IMG/VR virus record: IMGVR_UViG_3300037247_000966
Location: 1 to 27,324 of that record
Direction: 5' to 3' (one strand)
DNA: 27,324 nucleotides
From: a virus
The notes beneath the pieces are model-generated. The model was given only the letters and a program-made list of their open reading frames with translations. It made no database searches and was not told the DNA's origin. Shown here in pieces: positions 3,048 through 26,835 of the stretch (its first letter is position 1; each line of letters begins with the position of its first letter). The translations under genes were made by a program, and so were the position numbers.

Positions 3048-3321
3048 TGGAAAAGAGCCAAGCAGTAGTAGTGACCACAGAGCACCGTGGAGTCTTCTTT
3101 GGATATCTCGACGGAGAGCTGACCAAGGAAAAGGTGAAGCTCGCGAAGGCGCGCAACTGTGTGTACTGGGATGCTGGCACACGAGGCTTTATGGGCCTAG
3201 CTGACAGCGGACCAACCGCCCAGTGTCGTGTTGGCCCAGCGATTCCGTCTCTGGAATTGTTCGACATCACGGCCGTGCTTGAGTGCACCGAACACGCAGT
3301 CAAGGCGTGGGAGGAAGGCCC

Positions 3322-3334
<13 letters not shown>
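3047..3334 (+). CDS. DUF6948-like phage protein
   Basis: This 95-aa protein has the pattern I recall for a recurring phage family (DUF6948): an early beta stretch AVVVTTEHRGVFFGYL, then a Lys-rich helix KVKLAKARNCVYW, then RGFMGLADSGP and CRVGPAIPSLEL, and a final helix CTEHAVKAWEEGPW. The biochemical role of the family is unknown. The start is at a TAATG junction, with AGGAGA upstream. The 3' end overlaps the repeat-protein gene by 13 bases. The name is from memory; the reading frame is secure. Confidence 0.75.
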
Positions 3335-3930
<596 letters not shown>

Positions 3931-5504: not shown

Positions 5505-5849
5505 ATGGCAGGACCACACGATGCACTGTTGCAGTTGCTGATCGAGGATGAGGAGTTCGGCGACGATATTCGCCGCGAGGTCGGCCGGCACTGGAAGTCG
5601 CTGCTGCCGAAAGTGCTGAACCGCATAACGAGGCAGGGAGGCGCGGGCAAGATCTCGGTGTTGGAGAAGGCCATTGAGGAGGCATGCAAAGGCACGATGG
5701 AGAAGCACCTCGCCACCCTGATCAAGAAGCAGGAATTCAAGGACCTGCTGAAGAAGGCGGTCGAGGAGAACCTCGCGGATCTCGCGCACGGAATGATGAA
5801 GCGGGCTCTCGATAAGATGATCGAACAGGCAGATCCGTATGACTACTGA
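5505..5849 (+). CDS. Hypothetical helical phage protein
   Basis: I do not recognise this 114-aa protein. The site AGGAGGGAAG (5495-5504) abuts the ATG at 5505 directly and overlaps the previous stop. The sequence is almost wholly helical and rich in Lys and Glu: LLQLLIEDEEFGDDIRREV, then SVLEKAIEEACKGTMEKHL, then KDLLKKAVEENLADLAHGMM. A helical bundle or coiled coil is likely. It sits between the exonuclease and the methyltransferase, which suggests DNA metabolism, but nothing in the sequence proves it. Confidence 0.8.
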   Translation: MAGPHDALLQLLIEDEEFGDDIRREVGRHWKSLLPKVLNRITRQGGAGKISVLEKAIEEACKGTMEKHLATLIKKQEFKDLLKKAVEENLADLAHGMMKRALDKMIEQADPYDY

Positions 5850-5858
5850 GGAGGGAAG

Positions 5859-6182
5859 ATGATGACGAGCGACACACTGAAGTCCCGAGCATTCCCCGCG
5901 CCGTGGTGCGACACGGTTGAGTTCCTGGTCGAGAAGAACGTCGACGGGAAGCGCATGGCGGCCACACTCACCGAGTTCGTGGAAGTGAAGCCGACCTTTG
6001 CCGCCACCCCAACGTTCAGCCTTGACTTCAAAGAAGCTCAGGTCCTCATGGATGATCTCTGGGCCAGTGGACTGCGCCCGACCGAGGGCAGCGGCAGCGC
6101 CGGCTCGCTGGCGGCGACAGAGCGGCACCTCAAAGACATGCAGCGGCTGGTGTTCGAGCACAGTGTGAGGAAGCAGCGGTGA
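5859..6182 (+). CDS. Conserved phage protein of unknown function
   Basis: This 107-aa protein carries a C-terminal pattern I recall as recurrent in phages: LDFKEAQVLMDDLWASGLRP, then a Gly/Ser turn, then LAATERHLKDMQRLVF. It suggests a helix-turn-helix-turn-helix fold with an invariant Leu-Met-Asp-x-Leu-Trp core. The N-terminal half is a beta-rich stretch. No catalytic residues are evident. AGGAGGGAAG (5849-5858) ends one base before the ATG. The 3' end overlaps the methyltransferase start by four bases (GTGA), so the two are likely co-translated; a functional link is only inference. Confidence 0.8.
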   Translation: MMTSDTLKSRAFPAPWCDTVEFLVEKNVDGKRMAATLTEFVEVKPTFAATPTFSLDFKEAQVLMDDLWASGLRPTEGSGSAGSLAATERHLKDMQRLVFEHSVRKQR

Positions 6183-11449: not shown

Positions 11450-11762
11450 TCTCCGCACCATGGACTGTCCCAACTGTAAGCGCGGACTGGTGCCCATCGA
11501 CGGCGATCCGGGGCCATGCCAGCGATGTGCCGGGATGGGCGTCCTCAAGGAGCCGGCGTGGCTGGCGCGCTATCTTCGGCTCATGCGCGAGGAGCACTTC
11601 TCCGATGCGTTCGGGGTGATCGCCGAGAGCTTCCGCCAGGCGACAGGCGTGTTGGCCCCGGGCAAAGACGTGGCGCCGGCGATGGGGCCCGCCGAGTCCC
11701 GCGATGATCGGCACTCATTATTCCAAACCTGGTTCCAGACGGAGGTGGTGTTGTGGCCGTGA
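11442..11762 (+). CDS. Zinc-ribbon protein
   Basis: This 106-aa protein begins with a four-cysteine ribbon: Cys9-x2-Cys12 (CPNCKRGL) and Cys26-x2-Cys29 (CQRCAGMG), a DnaJ-like spacing with Gly after the second pair. The rest is a helical segment (AWLARYLRLMREEHFSDAFGVIAESF) and a polar tail that runs into the next gene. No enzyme motif is present. The ATG overlaps the ASCH gene by eight bases. Confidence 0.75.
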   Translation: MCDLRTMDCPNCKRGLVPIDGDPGPCQRCAGMGVLKEPAWLARYLRLMREEHFSDAFGVIAESFRQATGVLAPGKDVAPAMGPAESRDDRHSLFQTWFQTEVVLWP

Positions 11763-12649
11763 ACGACATGGAGAAGAACGAGCCGATGATTATGGCGCCG
11801 GTGCGTTGCCGCGTGTGCGGACAGCCGATAATTCTAGAGGTGACCGGCCCGGATGAGGTCACCACAAGGTTTGATTTCCACGAAGAATGTGTGCCGCCAC
11901 CGCCACCCAAGGGCGCAATCCTCTGGGCGTTCCGCGGCTCTGTCGCCCACGGCATGTTCATACGCAGCGACGCCCCCGACTCCATCGACGACATCGACCT
12001 GATGGGCGTGGTGATCGCGCCGACCGAGAACTACCTGGGTCGACCCGAGTCAGCGTGGGGCAGTCGGGGGATGGCCGAGAGCTGGGAGGGCAAGTTCGAC
12101 ATCGTGATCTACGAGCTGCGGAAGTTCGTGACGCTGCTGCTCAAGAGCAACCCGAATGTTGTGGCCATGCTCTGGCTGCCCGAAGACAAGTACGTGCACG
12201 TCAGCCCGCTCGGCCAGCGGCTCATCGCGCACCGGCATCTGTTCATGTCGCGCAAGGCTTACGATTCGTTCACCGGATACGCCCAGCAGCAGATCGACAA
12301 GATGCGAGGCTCCGCCTACCAGGGCTACATGGGGGCAAAGCGCAAGGAGCTCGTCGATCGGTTCGGCTACGACACGAAGAATGCGGCCCACTGCATCCGG
12401 CTGCTCCGCATGGGCTGCGAGGTACTGCGCTACGGCGAGTATCGGGTGAACCGGTCTGGCATCGACTCCCAGGAACTGCTGGATATCAAGCGCGGCAAGT
12501 GGCCGATCAAACGGGTTGAAGCGTTGGCCGACGCGCTGTTCGATGACGCGGCTACGGCTGTCCGATACTCAGTGCTGCCCGAGGAGCCGGACTACGAGAA
12601 GGCTGAGGCGCTCCTCGTGTCGATGCTGAAGGAGGCGCTGTGGCCATGA
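11753..12649 (+). CDS. RlaP-like nucleotidyltransferase with N-terminal zinc site
   Basis: The main domain matches the polymerase-beta superfamily of the RlaP (RNA-ligase-associated) kind: WAFRGSVAHGMFI (GSxxHG, 62-67), then DDIDLMGVVIAP (Asp80, Asp82), the metal-binding pair, then YELRKFVTLLLKSNPNVVAMLWLP and a later helical half with HCIRLLRMGCEVL. It would transfer a nucleotide to RNA or another target; the true substrate is not known. An unusual N-terminal module has CRVCGQP (Cys19, Cys22) and FHEEC (His43, Cys46), a likely zinc finger. The GTG at 11753 follows GGAGGTGGTGTT. No RNA ligase gene is nearby. The domain is clear, the role inferred. Confidence 0.85.
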   Translation: MAVNDMEKNEPMIMAPVRCRVCGQPIILEVTGPDEVTTRFDFHEECVPPPPPKGAILWAFRGSVAHGMFIRSDAPDSIDDIDLMGVVIAPTENYLGRPESAWGSRGMAESWEGKFDIVIYELRKFVTLLLKSNPNVVAMLWLPEDKYVHVSPLGQRLIAHRHLFMSRKAYDSFTGYAQQQIDKMRGSAYQGYMGAKRKELVDRFGYDTKNAAHCIRLLRMGCEVLRYGEYRVNRSGIDSQELLDIKRGKWPIKRVEALADALFDDAATAVRYSVLPEEPDYEKAEALLVSMLKEALWP

Positions 12650-17619: not shown

Positions 17620-18226
17620 AGAGCCAAGCGCATGGGAACGCAGAGAGAATGAGACCGATCCTGCGTGGGCAGCGTTTGTTGCCTACAGAGATGCAGGGCC
17701 CCAGAGGAGCACCGCCAAGACGGGGCGCCTCTTAGGCAAATCGAAGAAGCTCATGGACGGGTGGAGTTCCAAGCACTCTTGGGTAGAAAGAACGCGGGCT
17801 TACGACATGCACCTCGACGATGTGGGGCGCAAGGCACACGCCGACGAGATCACCAAGATGCGGAAGCGCCACGCTCGGATCGGCATGCGCATGCAGGGGG
17901 TGGGGATCGGCGCGCTCGATCAGTTCGAATCGAAGGACAAGAAGACAGGCAAGACGACGTTTGCTAGGATCAGTGCATCGGAGGCTTCCCGGCTGGCGAA
18001 GGAAGGTGTACAGATAGAGCGCATCAGCCGCGGCGAGCCCGAGTCGATCCACGAGAACAGGGAGACGGATGTCGACAGCGCCCTTGAGCGAGAGGCACAG
18101 CGACTCCTCGACGACCCCGGAACTCGACGACGACTTGCGCATGCGGGCAGCGGCACTCGCAGCGACGAGAGCGACGCCAGCGGCAATGGGGGAGACGCTC
18201 TCCCAGGGGAAGTGGAGAGCGACTAG
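17609..18226 (+). CDS. Terminase small subunit-like protein
   Basis: The N-terminal half has the look of phage small terminases with a helix-turn-helix: WERRENETDPAWAAFVAYRD, then QRSTAKTGRLLGKSKKLMDG, then SSKHSWVERTRAYDMHLDD. It would recognise the packaging site and recruit the large subunit. The middle (85-150) is charged and helical, as in the oligomerisation part of the family. The last roughly 50 residues overlap the large terminase gene out of frame and are rich in Asp/Gly/Ser. The GTG at 17609 sits after AGAGAGGGAT. Position directly before the large subunit is strong support. Confidence 0.82.
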   Translation: MSAEEPSAWERRENETDPAWAAFVAYRDAGPQRSTAKTGRLLGKSKKLMDGWSSKHSWVERTRAYDMHLDDVGRKAHADEITKMRKRHARIGMRMQGVGIGALDQFESKDKKTGKTTFARISASEASRLAKEGVQIERISRGEPESIHENRETDVDSALEREAQRLLDDPGTRRRLAHAGSGTRSDESDASGNGGDALPGEVESD

Positions 18227-19640
18227 GCACCTCAGCCTTCTGAGCGACACGCTCGCCGACAGCATCTACCGGCAGAACGGGGTTGAGAACGTCATGGCGT
18301 CGATGCCGCCCCGTCATGGCAAAAGCTATCTGACCTCCTGGTGGACACCAGTCTGGGTCCTGGACCTCCATCCCGAGTACAAGATCGGGCTCGCCAGCTA
18401 CGAACTCCAGATCGCCGCGAAGTGGGGGCGCCTTGTCCGGAACACGATCCAGGAGCATACCTCCTCGCTGAGGGTCCGCGTCTCTCGCGACTCCAAGGCG
18501 CGCTCCCGCTGGGACACGACGGCAGGCGGCGGCATGCTCACGGCGGGCGTCGACGGGCCGTTCACGGGGGAAGGCTTCCAAGTCCTGATCCTCGACGATC
18601 TCTACAAGAACTGGCGGCAGTCCAAGTCTCATCTCTATCGTGACATGGTCTGGGACTGGTTCTTGTCGACGGCCCTCACCCGGCTTGAGCCGGGGGGCGT
18701 GATCTGGATCCCAATGACCCGCTGGGACGAGGACGACATCATCGGTCGCATTCAAGCGCAGGCACCGGGCTCTGAGGAGCTCGAAGATCGCGGCCTCGAG
18801 TTCACTGAGATCTGTCTGCCAGCCCTTGCCCTAGAGAACGATCTGATGGGCCGCAAGGAGGGCGAGGCGCTGTGGCCTGAGCGCTATCCAGCAAAGCGGC
18901 TACTCGTCATCAAGCGGACGGTTGGCCATCTGATCTGGCGAGCGGTCTTCATGCAGCGACCCCTGGCCGGTGAGGGCAAGGTCTTCGCCCGGCAGCAGTT
19001 CCGCTATTGGAGACCGCAGACCAACGGCAGCCTACTGTGGTTGCTGACGGGGGGCGAGGGCGATGCGGACCGGCGGGTTGAGCCGCGCCGCACCGTGCGT
19101 TTCGCCACCGTCGACCTTGCGGCCAAGGACAAGGAGCAGCACGACTACGTGGTATTCAGCGCGTGGGCGTTGACCCACTCCAACGATCTGCTGCTTGTCG
19201 ACCGCATTCGATTCAAGAGCGAGGCGCCCGGCCAGCTGGCTGCCGCTCGGCAGTTCTTCGCGCGCAACGGCGGCTTCCTCGTCGTCGAGTCGGTCGCCTA
19301 CCAGCACGCGCTCATCGCACTGCTTCGTCGCGGAGACGCGAACCACGCGCCGGTCCCCTGCCGGGAGTTCCACCCTGGACGCTACGGCGACAAGATCGCC
19401 CGCGCGCGGTCCGCCCAGGTCTTCCAAGAAGGGGGGCAACTCTACTATCCTGCAAAGGCCGAGTGGCTGGATGAGTGGGAGGAGGAGATCGTGAACTTCC
19501 CGAACGTGGAGCACGACGATCAGGTCGACACTCAATCGATGGCCGTGCTAGAGGTCGTGAACGGTCGGATTGGGGTGGGCGTCGCGGCCATCGAACTGGA
19601 CTCTGAACTACTCGAGCGGGTGAATCCCTGGGGAGACTGA
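18069..19640 (+). CDS. terL: Terminase large subunit
   Basis: The packaging motor: an N-terminal ATPase drives DNA into the procapsid and a C-terminal nuclease cuts it. In the 523-aa product, Walker A is PPRHGKS (80-86, Lys85), Walker B is VLILDDL (172-178, Asp176/Asp177), and the nuclease acids are Asp349 (ATVDLAAKD), Glu407 (LVVESV) and the Asp483-Asp484/Asp487 cluster (EHDDQVDT). This is a complete set at usual length. The ATG at 18069 (GGGAGACGG upstream) lies 158 bases inside the small subunit gene; the ATG at 18138 would be a shorter option but lacks a ribosome site. The portal gene follows after two bases. Confidence 0.95.
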   Translation: MSTAPLSERHSDSSTTPELDDDLRMRAAALAATRATPAAMGETLSQGKWRATRHLSLLSDTLADSIYRQNGVENVMASMPPRHGKSYLTSWWTPVWVLDLHPEYKIGLASYELQIAAKWGRLVRNTIQEHTSSLRVRVSRDSKARSRWDTTAGGGMLTAGVDGPFTGEGFQVLILDDLYKNWRQSKSHLYRDMVWDWFLSTALTRLEPGGVIWIPMTRWDEDDIIGRIQAQAPGSEELEDRGLEFTEICLPALALENDLMGRKEGEALWPERYPAKRLLVIKRTVGHLIWRAVFMQRPLAGEGKVFARQQFRYWRPQTNGSLLWLLTGGEGDADRRVEPRRTVRFATVDLAAKDKEQHDYVVFSAWALTHSNDLLLVDRIRFKSEAPGQLAAARQFFARNGGFLVVESVAYQHALIALLRRGDANHAPVPCREFHPGRYGDKIARARSAQVFQEGGQLYYPAKAEWLDEWEEEIVNFPNVEHDDQVDTQSMAVLEVVNGRIGVGVAAIELDSELLERVNPWGD

Positions 19641-19642
19641 CA

Positions 19643-21391
19643 GTGGCAGAGAATCAGCAGACCGCACCGAACGAGGAGACCGTCGCAATAGACCCCATGG
19701 CCATACTCGGCACCACCGGGCTCAAGCAGTTCGGGGGCATGGTCGACGAGGAGTGGCACATCAAGCTCCGCGGCAAGCGGGGCGTGAAGCTCTACCGCGA
19801 GATGAGCGACAACTGCGCGGTGATCGGCGCGTTCCTCTTCGCCATCGAGATGTTCGTCCGGCAGGTGGAGTGGCACAGCGTGCCGGCCGACGAGGACAAC
19901 GAGCAGGCGGTAGAGGCCCAGAAGTTCCTCGACAGCTGCATCGATGACATGGCCGTGACCTGGGACGACTTCGTGGCCGAGGTGCTGACCATGCTCCCCT
20001 TCGGCTGGTCCCTCTTCGAGGAGGTCTACAAGCGGCGGGTGGGGCCGGACGAGGTGGACCCGTCGCGGCGCTCGAACCACACGGACGGCCGCATCGGCTG
20101 GCGCAAGTTCGGGGTGCGGGCTCAGGACACGCTCTGGAAGTGGGAGCTGGACGAGGACGGCACGATCAAAGGCATGTGGCAATGGGACATGTTCGCGCGG
20201 AAGGGGCTGGTGCTCATCCCCATCGAGAAGGCACTACTCTTCCGGACGAGGAGCGCGAAGAACAACCCGGAGGGTAGATCCATCCTTCGGAACAGCTTCC
20301 GTAGTTGGATGCGCATGAAACGCATCCAGGACTTCGAGGCTATCGGCATCGAGCGGGAGCTTGCGGGGATGCCCGTGTTCGAGGTGCCGGTCCACCTGAT
20401 GGACCCGAACGCGTCGGTCTCCGACCGAGCTATCCGGACGAGCTTCGAGCAGCTTGCCCGACGAATCCGCATGGACGAGCTCCACGGTCTGGTCATCCCC
20501 ACGGAGACCGACATCAACGGTCAGCCCACCGGCTACAAGTTCCGGCTAGCAACGACTGGCGGCCGGCGGGCTATCGACGCGTCCAAGACCATCGAGCGCT
20601 ACGAGAAGCGCATCACGACCACCGTGCTCCACGACTGGGTGCTGCTCGGCCAGGACAAGGTCGGGAGCTTTGCGCTGAGCGACTCGAAGACGCAGGCGTC
20701 GAGCACGGCCGTCGGCGGCTTCCTCGGCATCATCAAGTCGGTGATCAACCGGGTGGCCATCCCCCGGCTCTTCCGGCTCAACCCGGAGTTCCCGCGAGAG
20801 GTGTGGCCTTCGCTGGAGCACGGGGACATCGAGATCCCGGACCTCACGATGCTCGGCGATTTCATCACGAAGATGATCGGCAGCGGTGCGCTGTCCCCGG
20901 ATAACGCGCTCGAGCGACATATCCGCCAGAAGGGCTCGCTGCCTGAGAAACAGGAGGACCCAGACCTCACGCCGATGAACGCGGACCCGGCGCGGCCCGG
21001 TGGTTCTGGGCGCATGGATCCGCAGACCAGGCCGAGGGTCCCCGGACAGCCGGTGCCCTCTGCGGTGCCGGCGACGTTGACGCCCGAGCAGCAAGCGGCA
21101 GCGGTCGTGGCAGGGGTACCCGCCGAGGGGCCACCGCCCACCCCGGCGGACGTTGGCGGTGCGCCCACCGAGTCGGCAGAGGTGTTGCTCGATCCGAAGC
21201 TCGCGCTCAACGGGGCCCAGGTCACGGCCATCGTCACCCTGCTCACCTCGGTGGGCGACGGGACGTTGCCGCGTGAATCGGCTATCGAGTTGATCGTCGC
21301 CGCCTTCCCCATCTCTCGGGACAGGGCTGAGGCGATCATGGGCACGGTGGGCACCGCCGCCTTCACGCCAGCCACGGGGGAGGCACCATGA
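19643..21391 (+). CDS. Portal protein, DUF935 (Mu gp29-like) family
   Basis: It forms the dodecameric ring at the capsid vertex through which DNA enters. The 582-aa length is usual. Family-like features: RGVKLYREMSDNCAVIGAFLFAIE near 50-72, an LPFGWSLFEEVYK segment near 117-129, PEGRSILRNSFRSWMRMK near 208-226, and the FRLNPEFP and SLEHGDIEIPDL region near 370-395. Residues 430-510 are a Pro/Ala/Gly linker. The C-terminal LNGAQVTAIVTLLTSVGDGTLPRESA stretch is typical of the DUF935 tail. The GTG at 19643 follows GGGGAGACTGACA. The neighbouring large terminase and gpF-like gene confirm it. Confidence 0.93.
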   Translation: MAENQQTAPNEETVAIDPMAILGTTGLKQFGGMVDEEWHIKLRGKRGVKLYREMSDNCAVIGAFLFAIEMFVRQVEWHSVPADEDNEQAVEAQKFLDSCIDDMAVTWDDFVAEVLTMLPFGWSLFEEVYKRRVGPDEVDPSRRSNHTDGRIGWRKFGVRAQDTLWKWELDEDGTIKGMWQWDMFARKGLVLIPIEKALLFRTRSAKNNPEGRSILRNSFRSWMRMKRIQDFEAIGIERELAGMPVFEVPVHLMDPNASVSDRAIRTSFEQLARRIRMDELHGLVIPTETDINGQPTGYKFRLATTGGRRAIDASKTIERYEKRITTTVLHDWVLLGQDKVGSFALSDSKTQASSTAVGGFLGIIKSVINRVAIPRLFRLNPEFPREVWPSLEHGDIEIPDLTMLGDFITKMIGSGALSPDNALERHIRQKGSLPEKQEDPDLTPMNADPARPGGSGRMDPQTRPRVPGQPVPSAVPATLTPEQQAAAVVAGVPAEGPPPTPADVGGAPTESAEVLLDPKLALNGAQVTAIVTLLTSVGDGTLPRESAIELIVAAFPISRDRAEAIMGTVGTAAFTPATGEAP

Positions 21392-21606
21392 ACCAACCGG
21401 AACAGGTAGTTGGCGCGACGCTCCGCAATGGGCGGCCGCAGGACGAGGACGGCAAGCGCTGCCTGAAGCGCGGTCATCACCGCTACGCTCGGGCCACGAC
21501 CGAATACGACTCGGTCAGCGAGAAGCCGTGCATCGTGCCCTGCTCGGCCGGCGAGGAAGCAACACACCGGGTCTGCCTTGATTGCGGGCTCGTCAAAGCC
21601 ATCTAG
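21388..21606 (+). CDS. Small Cys-rich protein
   Basis: This 72-aa protein has Cys25 and two later pairs, PCIVPC (48, 52) and VCLDCG (63, 66), with His29/His30, consistent with a zinc-binding fold. The function is unknown. It overlaps the portal stop (ATGA) with GGGGAGGCACC upstream. It is the first of several accessory genes inserted between portal and minor head protein. Confidence 0.75.
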   Translation: MNQPEQVVGATLRNGRPQDEDGKRCLKRGHHRYARATTEYDSVSEKPCIVPCSAGEEATHRVCLDCGLVKAI

Positions 21607-21615
21607 GAGGGAACA

Positions 21616-21837
21616 ATGAACGATCTACTACACCCATCAGTCGAGCGCCTTCTTCAGTTCTTCAGCTACACGCACCTGCCCGAGAACCTGCAGGAAATCT
21701 CTCGCCCGTTCTGCGAGCTGGCCACGCAAATGGCTAATAGCCTCCCCGGCAACCCTGAAACCACAGTCGCGCTTCGCAAGCTGCTCGAGGCCAAGGACTG
21801 TGCGGTCCGGTCCTTGCTGGAGGGGGAGAGCAAATGA
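21616..21837 (+). CDS. Acb2/Tad1-like protein, candidate anti-CBASS sponge
   Basis: This 73-aa helical protein matches the pattern I recall for the Acb2/Tad1 hairpin family: HPSVERLLQFFSYTHLPENL, then QEISRPFCELATQM, then NSLPGNPETTVALRKLLEAK and DCAVRSLL. Acb2 proteins bind cyclic oligonucleotides made by host CBASS defence and so stop abortive infection. The conserved LRKLLEAKD-AVR helix and the FxYxHLP motif are the main basis. AGGAGGGAAC (21605-21614) ends one base before the ATG. Its place between portal and head genes is not that of the usual early anti-defence locus. The family assignment is from memory; the binding activity is inferred. Confidence 0.78.
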   Translation: MNDLLHPSVERLLQFFSYTHLPENLQEISRPFCELATQMANSLPGNPETTVALRKLLEAKDCAVRSLLEGESK

Positions 21838-22178
21838 CCTGCGCCAAAGTCCATCCGAACGTCGAGATCACCTGCGACCTGGGGGACCACGAGGGGCCCT
21901 GCCAAGCCGACTGGCCGGAGCATGGTCGCGTTGAGTGGGAGTACAACGAGCGCGGCACGGTCAAGCGCTCGAAGCTGCTGAAGGAAGAGATTGATTGCGC
22001 CCTGGCGGGATGTGATATCGGGAGCGACGACTGCACCCACGTCAGGGCCGTGCCCTGCTATGGCGCCGGCGAGCCCACCCCTATCGGCACCACGATCCCC
22101 GGCGAGCCGTTCGATGATGAGGAGGAGGACGCTGAGGCGCACATGGCGCATGTCCCCGACAAGGAGGCAGGCGAATGA
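21834..22178 (+). CDS. Cys/acidic-rich phage protein
   Basis: This 114-aa protein has several spaced cysteines: ACs at 3 and 14, CQADW (23), then CALAGCDIG (55, 60), CTHVRAVPC (67, 75). The C-terminus is strongly acidic (FDDEEEDAEAH). Metal binding is possible. The function is unknown. The start overlaps the Acb2-like stop (ATGA) after GGAGGGGGAGAGCAA, so the two may be co-translated. Confidence 0.72.
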   Translation: MTCAKVHPNVEITCDLGDHEGPCQADWPEHGRVEWEYNERGTVKRSKLLKEEIDCALAGCDIGSDDCTHVRAVPCYGAGEPTPIGTTIPGEPFDDEEEDAEAHMAHVPDKEAGE

Positions 22179-22471
22179 TCGGCGGCGCCCTCATCATGGC
22201 CGCTGGGCTCGTCTTCGGCTTCATCGCGGGCGTCCTGGTGATGGCCGCCTACTATGGCGGGGTCAAGCATGGGCTAAGCAGTCAGGCCGGCAAACGCGGC
22301 GAACTCAACGTGGGGAAGATCCAGCCCATGATCTACGCGGAGTGCGACGGAGGCTGCAGCCAGACACTCCGCCGGCCGGACGATGGGGATGTGTGGCAGT
22401 GCCAGGAGTGCGCGGCCGACACGTTGGAAGAGGCGGCCCAGGAGGCGGCTGAAGTGAGGACGAAGCATTGA
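22175..22471 (+). CDS. Membrane-anchored zinc-ribbon-like protein
   Basis: An N-terminal hydrophobic segment (MIGGALIMAAGLVFGFIAGV, then LVMAAYYGG) would span the inner membrane. The soluble part holds CDGGC (near 57-61) and CQECA (near 76-79), a possible four-Cys zinc ribbon, and an acidic C-terminal helix (TLEEAAQEAAEV). The function is unknown. The start overlaps the previous stop after AAGGAGGCAGGCGA. Confidence 0.75.
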   Translation: MIGGALIMAAGLVFGFIAGVLVMAAYYGGVKHGLSSQAGKRGELNVGKIQPMIYAECDGGCSQTLRRPDDGDVWQCQECAADTLEEAAQEAAEVRTKH

Positions 22472-22495
22472 TGCACGTTGAAGCAAGGAGTCGCC

Positions 22496-22795
22496 ATGCC
22501 CCGCAAGTACAGCACCACCGTCTACCTGACCGAGTCGCAGCATGGGCGGCTCAAGGTGCTGCGCGAGCGGACTGGCGTCTCGATGGCCGAGTACATCCGA
22601 CAGGGCATTGACATGGTGTTGCACAATCACCGTGACAACGCGGCGCTGGGGCTCGCGAAAATGAAGGCTTCAGAGGCCCGTAATTCGGACGGGTCGGTCC
22701 ACCCAGTGCACGTCGCCCGGGAGATAGCCGAGGCGATCTTCGGCGCGGAGAACGTTGACGCTGAATCGTTCGATGAGGCGGAGGCCGCCACCTAA
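22496..22795 (+). CDS. Ribbon-helix-helix DNA-binding protein
   Basis: The N-terminal 45 residues fit a CopG/Arc ribbon-helix-helix: RKYSTTVYLTESQHGRLKVL forms the strand and helix 1, then RERTGVSMAEYIRQGIDMVL gives the turn (TGVSMAEYI) and helix 2. Such proteins bind DNA as dimers and usually repress transcription. The C-terminal half (50-99) is a separate helical part ending in acidic residues. The ATG at 22496 follows AAGGAGTCGCC; a TTG at 22478 is rejected. A regulator among head genes is unusual and may control nearby genes. Confidence 0.85.
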   Translation: MPRKYSTTVYLTESQHGRLKVLRERTGVSMAEYIRQGIDMVLHNHRDNAALGLAKMKASEARNSDGSVHPVHVAREIAEAIFGAENVDAESFDEAEAAT

Positions 22796-23808
22796 TGCCC
22801 TTCCTCTCCCATCTCCGCAAGCAGCGCGAGCCCCAGAAGCGGGAGCGGGCTCGTGCCTGGACCCGGGCGCAGCTATTCAGCAACCGGTTCGAGCGTCGAT
22901 TCGCGCGGCGTTTCCAGATGGTCGTCCAGAACCTCGAGGACCGGATCACCGAGGACCTGGTGGAGACGGCGGCCGAGGCGCAGAGCGCGGAGATGGTGAT
23001 AGCGGCGTTGCCCATCGGGCTCTACGCGCCGTTGACAAAAGCCTCGACACGCATTCTTAAGCAACCGGAGGATGTACTCCCCGATCTCTCGTTCGACGAG
23101 CAGCTCGACATCCTGCTGGCGACGCTGCTCGCGGAGAAGGCGGAGCTTGAGTTGGGCGTCCTCCTCGGCAAGCTGACGGCCGGCGACAGGAGTCGGGTCG
23201 CCGACTTCCGCTTCGACATCGTCAACCCGCACTCGATTGCCTGGCTGCGGACGCATCGGCTGGAACTGATCCGGGGCATCCAGTCGAATACGGAGAGCGC
23301 CATCCGCGATGCAATCAAGGAAGCCATCGAGCAGGGGATCTCCGCGCCGGCCACTGCCCGCCGGATCCGCGACACCATCGGCCTCACCGCTCCCCAACAG
23401 AAGCACTTGGCCAAGGTGAGGGCACAGCTCGAGGCGGCGGATCCACCGCTCTCTCGGCGAGAGATCGAGAACATGGTGGCGGCCAACCGAAGACGGAAGC
23501 TCAAGGTACGCTCCGAGGCCATCGCCCAGACGGAGATCACGCGGGCTGAGAGCCAGGGTCAGATGGACATGTGGCGCTCGGTGCGGGACGAAGGGCTGCT
23601 GGATGCCGAGACCATGAAGCGCTGGGTGGCTGCGTCGACCGCCGACGCTCTCTGTCGCTCTCTGCACAACGCGGAGCCCGTGCCACTCGACGGTAATTTC
23701 GTGGTGTCGGCCGGCGAGTTCTTCGCGCCGCCCGCGCATCCGCGATGTCGATGCTCCCTGGTCCTCGTCTTCCCTGGCGATCTCACGGCAGAGGAGTCCG
23801 CTGCATGA
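22795..23808 (+). CDS. Minor head protein, Mu gpF-like (head morphogenesis)
   Basis: This 337-aa protein fits the phage Mu gpF / SPP1 gp7 family that joins portal and capsid in assembly. The C-terminal signature is clear: VRSEAIAQTEITRAESQGQM, then a KRWVAAST-DALCRSLHNAEPVPLD region, and FFAPPAHPRCRCSLVLVF at the end (Cys322, Cys324). The N-terminal half is helical and basic. The ATG shares its A with the previous stop (TAATG). The position after the portal, with the protease gene downstream, matches Mu-like head modules. Family is secure. Confidence 0.92.
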   Translation: MPFLSHLRKQREPQKRERARAWTRAQLFSNRFERRFARRFQMVVQNLEDRITEDLVETAAEAQSAEMVIAALPIGLYAPLTKASTRILKQPEDVLPDLSFDEQLDILLATLLAEKAELELGVLLGKLTAGDRSRVADFRFDIVNPHSIAWLRTHRLELIRGIQSNTESAIRDAIKEAIEQGISAPATARRIRDTIGLTAPQQKHLAKVRAQLEAADPPLSRREIENMVAANRRRKLKVRSEAIAQTEITRAESQGQMDMWRSVRDEGLLDAETMKRWVAASTADALCRSLHNAEPVPLDGNFVVSAGEFFAPPAHPRCRCSLVLVFPGDLTAEESAA

Positions 23809-24861: not shown

Positions 24862-25010
24862 AACCCGGCCTCTGGGTGGGACCGGGCTTCGAGAGAAGAA
24901 AGAAGATTCTGGCTGTCGCGACCAAACGACGTGTTGTGAAGAAACTACGCACACACGGCGAGGTTGTCAATGGCCCAAAATCCAGAGTCCCCAATCTCCA
25001 AACAAGATGA
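24858..25010 (+). CDS. Possible 50-aa basic mini-protein
   Basis: A GTG at 24858 overlaps the previous stop (GTGA) and opens a 50-aa frame, beginning MKPGLWVGPGFERRKKILAV and strongly basic (RRKK, TKRRVVKKLR). It ends 41 bases inside the protease gene. It fills what would otherwise be a 102-base gap, and a weak stem (24864-24886) lies at its start. No clear ribosome site is present, so it may depend on coupling. The evidence is the overlap and composition only. Confidence 0.45.
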   Translation: MKPGLWVGPGFERRKKILAVATKRRVVKKLRTHGEVVNGPKSRVPNLQTR

Positions 25011-26835
25011 GTCCCCGAAGAACGCATTCGGGCTGACCGCCGCCGAGTCGTTGGCCGTCGTAGAGCGGCGCCGAGCGCAGCACAACGATGGGCCATCCCC
25101 CAGCTTCTTTCATGACGGCCGCTTCAGCCAGAGCAGCGCGAACTACGTGCAGCCGGCGCCGAGCAAGGAGAAGGTGTGCGGTGCGTGCCGGTTCTTCCTT
25201 CGATCGAACGAGGGAGAGCTCGGCCGCTGCCAAGTGGTGGAGGGAGATATCGCGTGGTTTGCCACCTCCGACTACTTCATCGCGGCGGAGGACGAGGCGG
25301 CTGCCACCTTCGAGTTCGTAGCCCAGAAGGATGCAGGCGATCAGCTACTCAGCGCGTTCTGGAAGCAGGTCGAGGGGAAGGCTCCGGTCGTCGTGCGGCC
25401 CTGGGTCGTGCAAAAAAAGATCCAGCTGTGCACCAAGGAGCAGCAGGACCCGGACAAGCCACTGGCCGCCCAGAAGTTCTGTGTGCTGGACGAGGCGGGG
25501 GCGAAGGTGCTGAGCCGCACGGCTACCCGCTCCGAAGCGCAGGGCGAGTTGTCGCGGATCGAGCGCTTCTCAAAGGCAGGCCATCTCAAGCCGAAGGCTT
25601 CGGTCTGCGATCGAGAGAGTTCAGACTACAGCCCAGCGAAGTGCAGGGCGCGCATGTCGAAGGACGGGGGTGCTATCGTCTCTACGCCCCAGGAGCTGCG
25701 CATAGCCGCGCGCAAGGCTCTGGAGACGCCGGGCTGCGAGGGGCTGAAGTTCTACGACAGCCAGGGCGAGGAGCTGCAGACGGTCTTCCGCAGCCCGGAG
25801 ATCGTGAAGTCGGCGCTCGAGGTGGTGCCGCCGGCCATCCCCGATACGGCGCGCGTCGTGTTCGTGGCCGGCGCGCCTACCTCGATGGAGGCATCGCGCG
25901 GTGTGCCGCTCGCCGGGCCCGACGGACGAACGTTCCGCGACGTGTATGCCAAGGCGTTGGGTCTGCCAAGTGGCGACTGGGGCCTGGTGCACGCGATTCC
26001 CACGGAGTTGGACGTTGCTGCGCTGGGCAACGCGAACGACGTCGCGGATCTCTGGAGCATGTGGAGCGGTTGGTTCGATGGGATCGTGGGCAAGGACGAC
26101 GATACGAAGATCGTCGTGGCGCTTGGCAAGCTGGCCCGCAACCTGCTCGGCGAACGCGCTGCGTTCCACCTTCCGCACCCGGCCGCCGTCCGCAAGATGG
26201 GGGACAAGGGGGAGGTCGCGCGGAAGATGCGCGCCATCCGAAAACGGGTGATCGCCGACGCGCTCAAGTCGCTCAACTTGACGGGAGGGGAAACGGACAC
26301 TAGCATCGAAGTCGAGCTCGCCTTTGGGGCGGCCGCCGACAACCTCGAGAAAAGCGAGGGGTGGCTGATCCGAAGGAGCATGACGCCGATGTTCAAGGCG
26401 AATGCTGACGAGCTACAGGTCGTCTACGGAGTTGTGTTGACCCCTTACGGGGTGGACACCCAGGAAGACTGGCCTCCACCGGCCGAGATCCAGAAGGCCG
26501 CTCACAACTACGTTCCGCAAAGCCGAGTAATAGGGCTTGACCACGAGCAGGTGTCGACTGCGTTCCCCGTGGAGTCTTGGCTTGAGTCGTATCCGAGCGA
26601 GGAAGACTACGGCCTAGCCATGAGGAACGAACCACACAGGGCGTACCGTCGGAAGTTTGGGACCGGCGTCCTTCGATCAGGGGAATGGGTGATGGGAACC
26701 AAGGTGCCAGAGACAACCGAATGGAGCGCGATCAGGGCCGGAGAGAGAGCCTCGTACTCCATCGGCGGCAGTGGGTTCCGAACACCGGGCAATGAGTCGC
26801 AGATGCCGGCCGTCGAGTTTATCGACATCGGTTGA
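24970..26835 (+). CDS. Fusion protein: HiPIP-like Cys domain, UDG-like domain, XkdF protease
   Basis: Three parts are visible in 621 residues. (1) About 65-225: VCGACRFFLR (Cys70, Cys73) and GRCQVVEGDIAWFATSDYF (Cys87), with more Cys at 154, 171, 213 and 225; the start resembles a high-potential iron-sulfur fold. (2) About 295-430: a uracil-DNA-glycosylase-like domain with FVAGAPTSMEASRGVPLAGP, VALGKLARNLLGE and LPHPAAVRKMGD. (3) About 460-605: an XkdF-type domain, VVYGVVLTPYGVDTQEDWPP, AHNYVPQSRVIGLDHEQ (His525) and ASYSIGG (Ser597), the likely His/Ser of a prohead protease. The ATG at 24970 follows GCGAGG. Placed before a scaffold-like gene, as expected for a head maturation protease. Activity of the UDG part is unproven. 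Confidence 0.85.
   Translation: MAQNPESPISKQDESPKNAFGLTAAESLAVVERRRAQHNDGPSPSFFHDGRFSQSSANYVQPAPSKEKVCGACRFFLRSNEGELGRCQVVEGDIAWFATSDYFIAAEDEAAATFEFVAQKDAGDQLLSAFWKQVEGKAPVVVRPWVVQKKIQLCTKEQQDPDKPLAAQKFCVLDEAGAKVLSRTATRSEAQGELSRIERFSKAGHLKPKASVCDRESSDYSPAKCRARMSKDGGAIVSTPQELRIAARKALETPGCEGLKFYDSQGEELQTVFRSPEIVKSALEVVPPAIPDTARVVFVAGAPTSMEASRGVPLAGPDGRTFRDVYAKALGLPSGDWGLVHAIPTELDVAALGNANDVADLWSMWSGWFDGIVGKDDDTKIVVALGKLARNLLGERAAFHLPHPAAVRKMGDKGEVARKMRAIRKRVIADALKSLNLTGGETDTSIEVELAFGAAADNLEKSEGWLIRRSMTPMFKANADELQVVYGVVLTPYGVDTQEDWPPPAEIQKAAHNYVPQSRVIGLDHEQVSTAFPVESWLESYPSEEDYGLAMRNEPHRAYRRKFGTGVLRSGEWVMGTKVPETTEWSAIRAGERASYSIGGSGFRTPGNESQMPAVEFIDIG

Follow-up and report, generated by a model that had tools for sequence, protein, structure and literature searches.

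The window, a stretch of 27,324 nt covering positions 1 to 27,324 of the IMG/VR virus record IMGVR_UViG_3300037247_000966, carries head genes and, also on the plus strand, genes for replication and metabolism. The gene of interest encodes P0001, a protein of 73 aa whose translation is MNDLLHPSVERLLQFFSYTHLPENLQEISRPFCELATQMANSLPGNPETTVALRKLLEAKDCAVRSLLEGESK. The features that bear on it are the following.

18069-19640, plus strand: large terminase gene
19643-21391, plus strand: Mu-type portal gene (PF06074, 1e-19; phrog_113, 3e-63)
21388-21606, plus strand: small Cys-containing ORF of 72 aa upstream of the P0001 gene, without a family match
21604-21615, plus strand: Shine-Dalgarno region TAGGAGGGAACA preceding the ATG of the P0001 gene (from the sequence)
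21616-21837, plus strand: P0001 gene, 73-aa helical-hairpin protein of PHROG 1761/5120 (from translation, profiles and model)
21667-21681, plus strand: codons 18-22 (YTHLP) of P0001; Tyr18 aligns with T4 Acb2 Tyr8, and His20 is invariant in 58 relatives
21775-21810, plus strand: codons 54-65 (RKLLEAKDCAVR), the near-invariant helix-3 signature; Arg54 aligns with T4 Acb2 Thr68
21834-22178, plus strand: downstream ORF of 114 aa, whose start overlaps the P0001 stop codon (ATGA)
22795-23808, plus strand: Mu-F-type head gene (PF04233, 4e-7; phrog_3517, 6e-35)
24964-26835, plus strand: XkdF-protease gene

Five small genes, extending from 21388 to 22795, form a cassette between the portal and Mu-F-type head genes, and the P0001 gene is the second of the five, touching neither of these head genes. 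The profile matches of the two head genes agree with an earlier note on this DNA, which had placed the gene between portal and gpF-like genes; the strong ribosome site of its own that the note had described is likewise present, as AGGAGG ahead of the ATG, and the TAG within TAGGAGGGAACA is the stop codon of the preceding gene. No sigma-70-type promoter or plus-strand terminator was prominent around the cassette, and the GC content is undistinctive. The upstream ORF, another gene of this cassette, is probably unrelated; the cassette also contains a gene for a ribbon-helix-helix DNA-binding protein (22478-22795, plus strand; PF12651, 4e-10). Elsewhere on the plus strand of the window lie an RlaP-type nucleotidyltransferase of the RNA-repair/polymerase-beta family (11753-12649; PF10127, 1e-20) and an ORF (3283-3930) with a long GYGSGYGDGSGYG low-complexity tract, in which several frames are open on both strands and which is possibly a simple-repeat region. 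The ORF at 24964-26835 is an unusual fusion, in which a uracil-DNA-glycosylase-superfamily domain (PF03167, 4e-6) is joined to the XkdF-type protease domain (PF14550, 3e-17).

P0001 is a straightforward member of PHROG 1761 and 5120 (phrog_1761, E 4e-30; phrog_5120, E 6e-25), both of which are labeled "unknown function", and its relatives were detected among isolate phages (at least 317 records), in IMG/VR (at least 582 confirmed stretches) and in bacterial genome contigs from many phyla (181). Since the match to phrog_1761 is so strong, the isolate records so many and the FxYxHLPENL and LRKLLEAKDCAVR motifs of P0001 near-invariant among 58 relatives, a chance ORF is ruled out and the ORF at 21616-21837 is beyond doubt a genuine gene. 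The invariant residues of the family (n = 58 relatives) include F16, H20, L21, S29, A36, E48 and L53, and further R54, K55, L56, L57, E58, K60, D61 and R65; this uniformity is due in part to the LRKLLEAK pattern used in the search, and relatives gathered by tblastn without that pattern mostly retain it. An arms-race protein would be expected to vary more in its helix-3 signature than this family does, and the excess uniformity stems partly from search patterns favoring the signature. In some records the P0001-type domain follows an additional N-terminal region. Two loci (L041:4821-5195 and L005:4623-5180) have a common N-terminal extension (MGQAFD..G..LG...TKR.VFDKL...H.DAHE.RIKS), and in Erwinia phage pEa_SNUABM_25 (L260:1285-1713) the N-terminal region contains a P-loop-like motif (GPVGSGKSS), which suggests a putative nucleotide-binding fusion.

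Acb2/Tad1 proteins sequester the nucleotide signals by which bacterial anti-phage immunity raises its alarm, and the earlier note had assigned P0001 to them from its sequence patterns. Neither P0001 nor any other ORF in the window matched the Pfam family PF24729 (Acb2_Tad1_hairpin; curated cut-off of 27 bits) at E 10, the 58 relatives yielded one sub-threshold match of a size that chance helical families also reach, and divergent members of the family scored 14-16 bits. The profile tool works, as T4 Vs.4 (Acb2) and Pseudomonas Acb2 were strongly matched in it. Membership of P0001 in PF24729 was rejected because its score falls below the cut-off. Profiles of PHROG 717 and Acb2 proper also gave no match to the P0001 family, one such search having matched nothing anywhere and being weak alone. 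Direct sequence matches of P0001 in Pfam, NCBIfam and the PDB were set aside as chance helical matches, and such chance matches included TetR_C_11 and Occludin_ELL for some family members, and designed helical repeats in the PDB.

Remote homology was detected when profiles of short hairpins were compared with the alignment of the P0001 family (A1). The short-hairpin alignment (A2; FTYHPPK...SREKSLAxTKLEEAVMWANA) matches PF24729 with E 1e-24 and corresponds to PHROG 1454, the proteins of which score 80+ bits on PF24729. The cleanest homology test was a search of 19 whole isolate phage genomes with phrog_1454, which returned 12 matches, one per genome (E 1.5e-7 to 5e-3), and every one of the 12 was the P0001-family gene. 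An HMM of the short hairpins, run over the 11,258 ORFs of the A1 loci, placed P0001-family ORFs (99 of which were present) at 78 of its 100 top matches, and its best match outside A1, an ORF in locus L003, probably encodes a true hairpin protein, as it exceeds the cut-off of PF24729. In the reverse search with the P0001-family HMM, short hairpins occupied 48 of the 50 top ranks and PDB 9ptq ranked 41st, all above 3000 shuffles; members of the P0001 family are akin to one another, so the matches in all these searches, that of the 19 genomes included, are not independent observations.

Alignment of the profiles to each other by hhalign gave 72-82% for A1 with A2, against at most 50% in 150 column permutations, and exceeded the 56-69% obtained for an accepted pair, A2 with an alignment of Acb2 of the Pseudomonas p26 kind (A3; PHROG 717). 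Addition of 19 more divergent isolate sequences raised the A1-A2 alignment to 92% (E 7e-7) with a score of 35.9, and 450 decoy permutations that preserve helical phase scored no higher than 24.2. Direct hhalign comparison of A1 with A3 gave nothing. The HMM comparison with Acb2/Tad1 hairpins that the earlier note had proposed thus lacks a direct PF24729 match and shows reciprocal remote detection with the short hairpins; with these controls, the P0001 family has profile homology to the wider Acb2/Tad1 hairpin superfamily, and we hold it to be highly probable that the two families are homologous, distantly.

The AlphaFold model of the P0001 monomer is all-helical (pLDDT 93; helices 7-16, 23-42 and 47-71), in accord with the helical 73-aa protein that the note had read from the sequence, and as a monomer prediction it fits the superfamily layout of a short N-terminal helix followed by two long antiparallel helices. 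The model of L083, a PF24729 member from the short-hairpin alignment, has helices 9-13, 25-45 and 50-72, and the long helices of the two models coincide after the 3-residue offset of the alignment. A Foldseek search of BFVD with the P0001 model placed the P0001 family at the head of the list, followed by a protein of Providencia phage PS3 annotated as 'Acb2/Tad1 hairpin domain-containing' (probability 0.98, TM 0.64, E 0.3). No Acb2 structure was among the PDB matches that Foldseek and VIA-align listed for the P0001 model, which is uninformative, as the control, L083, itself matched 7uq2 (Vs.4) only weakly (E 2.2). L083 also superimposes on PDB 9ptq at 1.8 A over 56 residues with Z 6.2, which carries little weight alone since Z of about 6 is ordinary for helical hairpins, and matches it by sequence with E 4e-7. 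The 9ptq entry, probably described by Hadary et al., is entitled 'Acb2 homolog 43 in complex with 3'cADPR', so that at least one solved structure among hairpins of such length holds a Thoeris-type signal.

Among the known systems closest to P0001, the short Acb2/Tad1 hairpins (PF24729, PHROG 1454, including 9ptq) resemble it in length (about 60-75 aa) and helix boundaries, and share with it the register ...LA......P...E...AL.KL.EA... as well as reciprocal HMM detection. Unlike them, the P0001 family has its own HLP...LRKLLEAKDxAVR signature, lacks REKS..T.LEEAVMWAN and stays below the Pfam cut-off. Proteins of the short-hairpin kind include gp101 of mycobacteriophage Xandras and gp102 of BigBubba (PMC11953737). 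Acb2 proper (Pseudomonas p26, T4 Vs.4; PHROG 717; PDB 8h2j, 7uq2) has the same short N-terminal helix and two long antiparallel helices and, like P0001, an aromatic residue at the Tyr8 position, whereas P0001 has no direct profile match to it, has Arg in place of Thr68 and has a shorter inter-helix loop. Tad1 (PDB 7uav, 8smd) has a C-terminal hairpin in common with PF24729 proteins and an N-terminal beta-sheet domain that is absent from the all-helical 73-aa model of P0001.

The residues of the pocket indicate how far the resemblance to Acb2 extends. The Y8A variant of T4 Acb2 is binding-deficient, with its binding-dependent activity abolished, and the T68M variant has reduced affinity (PMC12657230). 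The counterparts of these two residues are Y17 and T57 in L083, by the Pfam alignments, and Y18 and R54 in P0001, by hhalign. At position 18 an aromatic residue (Tyr, Phe or Trp) is present in 56 of the 58 relatives, and position 54 is Arg in all 58, so that Thr68 of Acb2 is not kept. We infer that the P0001 pocket is related to that of Acb2, with half of it kept and its chemistry changed, and, given the invariant Arg at the Thr68 position, P0001 probably differs from Acb2 in its ligand or in the way it binds one. The assignment in the earlier note is therefore partly upheld: the superfamily link stands on the HMMs, hhalign with its decoys, the helices and the Foldseek match, and identity with Acb2 does not, given the missing PF24729 and Acb2-proper matches and the replacement of Thr by an invariant Arg.

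The genomic surroundings of the family vary widely. In annotated isolates the gene adjoins the portal gene of Vibrio phage martha, lies among connector genes in Gordonia Ruthy, follows the major capsid gene in Rhodococcus Perlina and precedes the tail sheath gene in Vibrio 1.124.O. Citrobacter phiNP, Brevibacterium AGM6 and Gordonia Jumbo have it in a lysis cassette, Ruegeria RpAliso and Dinoroseobacter R2C have it among nucleotide-metabolism genes, and it lies between topoisomerase and rIIA in Acinetobacter 133, in the right arm of BigNuz and, in other phages, among early genes or at genome ends. In Citrobacter phage phiNP (L253, around 1501-1734) the gene lacks an annotation and shares bases with the end of the Rz endopeptidase gene. 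No family recurred among the immediate neighbors of the IMG/VR relatives (115 proteins scanned), and the ORF at 21834-22178, which the earlier note had suggested as a co-translated partner, has no relatives in phages or IMG/VR; as an orphan next to a gene whose family has no conserved neighbor, it is not supported as a conserved partner. The P0001-family gene behaves as an accessory gene independent of its neighbors and is found at many positions among the modules; such diverse positions without a fixed partner fit a counter-defense gene of this kind. A position among late genes, considered unusual in the note, is common in the isolate phages of the family. According to a review, Thoeris is triggered by the major head protein itself, so a sponge co-expressed with head genes could be timely, and late expression would be compatible with a sponge role.

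We assign P0001 to a sister family of the Acb2/Tad1 hairpins, distinct from Acb2, and consider it rather likely that it is a sponge-type binder of a nucleotide immune signal with altered specificity. P0001 and the hairpin sponges very probably have a common ancestor, and P0001 would assemble into a small oligomer whose pockets are predicted to form from the Tyr/His segment at the N terminus together with the helix-3 face of neighboring subunits. The oligomer would hold a nucleotide immune signal, which may be a cyclic dinucleotide, a cyclic trinucleotide or a cyclic ADP-ribose of the kind used by Thoeris, and with the signal held the suicide effector of the host would stay off, allowing the phage to evade immunity. 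Several observations weigh against this reading: the missing PF24729 and Acb2-proper matches, the invariant Arg at the Thr68 position, the uniformity of the helix-3 signature and the absence from the window of an RyR gene or a second hairpin gene. As a bolder and more doubtful proposal, PHROG 1761/5120 may constitute a large unrecognized branch of sponges in which the remodeled pocket (Arg for Thr, the HLP segment and the charged helix-3 face) captures a signal that no known sponge targets.

The same charged face could instead bind a protein of the host or phage, such as an effector or a phage regulator, if P0001 has kept the hairpin ancestry and no longer binds an immune nucleotide. The invariant charged residues R54, K55, E58, K60, D61 and R65 exceed the obvious need of a nucleotide pocket, the Acb2 Thr is lost, and fusions to long N-terminal extensions occur, one of them P-loop-like. 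We nevertheless regard this as unlikely, because the N-terminal aromatic/His segment is retained, the closest characterized structure, 9ptq, holds a nucleotide signal, and hosts of many phyla are easier to reconcile with a small molecule that is universal than with a protein target that varies. Far less probable still is a role for P0001 in the head module, as a minor protein of the virion or in assembly: portal, capsid, connector or sheath genes do neighbor the gene in this window and in several isolates, but elsewhere it is found with lysis, nucleotide-metabolism or early genes or at genome ends, and it has no conserved structural neighbor. An equally slight chance attaches to convergence of two amphipathic helical hairpins. 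Short helical proteins yield many weak chance matches; this explanation is largely refuted by the reciprocal searches, which in whole genomes matched the correct gene alone, by decoys that keep helical phase and score far lower, and by the register and helix boundaries that P0001 has in common with the A2 protein.

Whether a phage survives CBASS, Thoeris or a related signaling defense depends on sponge proteins, which host systems such as Panoptes detect in turn. If it acts as proposed, the P0001 family would rank among the most widespread sponge proteins, though labeled only 'unknown function'. The homology link predicts small-ligand binding at Tyr18/Arg54, and candidates from the family are present in phages whose hosts are grown in the laboratory, among them Mycobacterium smegmatis, Gordonia and Vibrio. 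The relatives include Gordonia phage Ruthy gp8, mycobacteriophage BigNuz gp77 and Vibrio phage martha VPCG_00024.

The window contains no RyR gene and no second hairpin gene beside the P0001 gene. RyR-domain proteins, according to a recent report (PMC13232231), bind Thoeris signals or break them down, and an RyR gene was found in one of 50 P0001-family records and one of 50 PF24729 records, so that an anti-Thoeris link between RyR and the P0001 family is suggestive at best. In one of these records the RyR gene lies within 0.5 kb of the P0001-family gene and in the other it adjoins the PF24729 gene (L043:5001-5228 and about 5560-5958; L102:412-933 and 947-1186). In 3 of 40 records the P0001-family gene is accompanied by a canonical hairpin gene that passes the Pfam cut-off. 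Hairpin-like ORFs less than 2 kb from a P0001-family gene were observed at L003:3150-3683, L023:4693-5007 and L078:3656-3937, those of L003 and L078 exceeding the PF24729 cut-off and that of L023 being weak, which indicates that both types can coexist in one phage.
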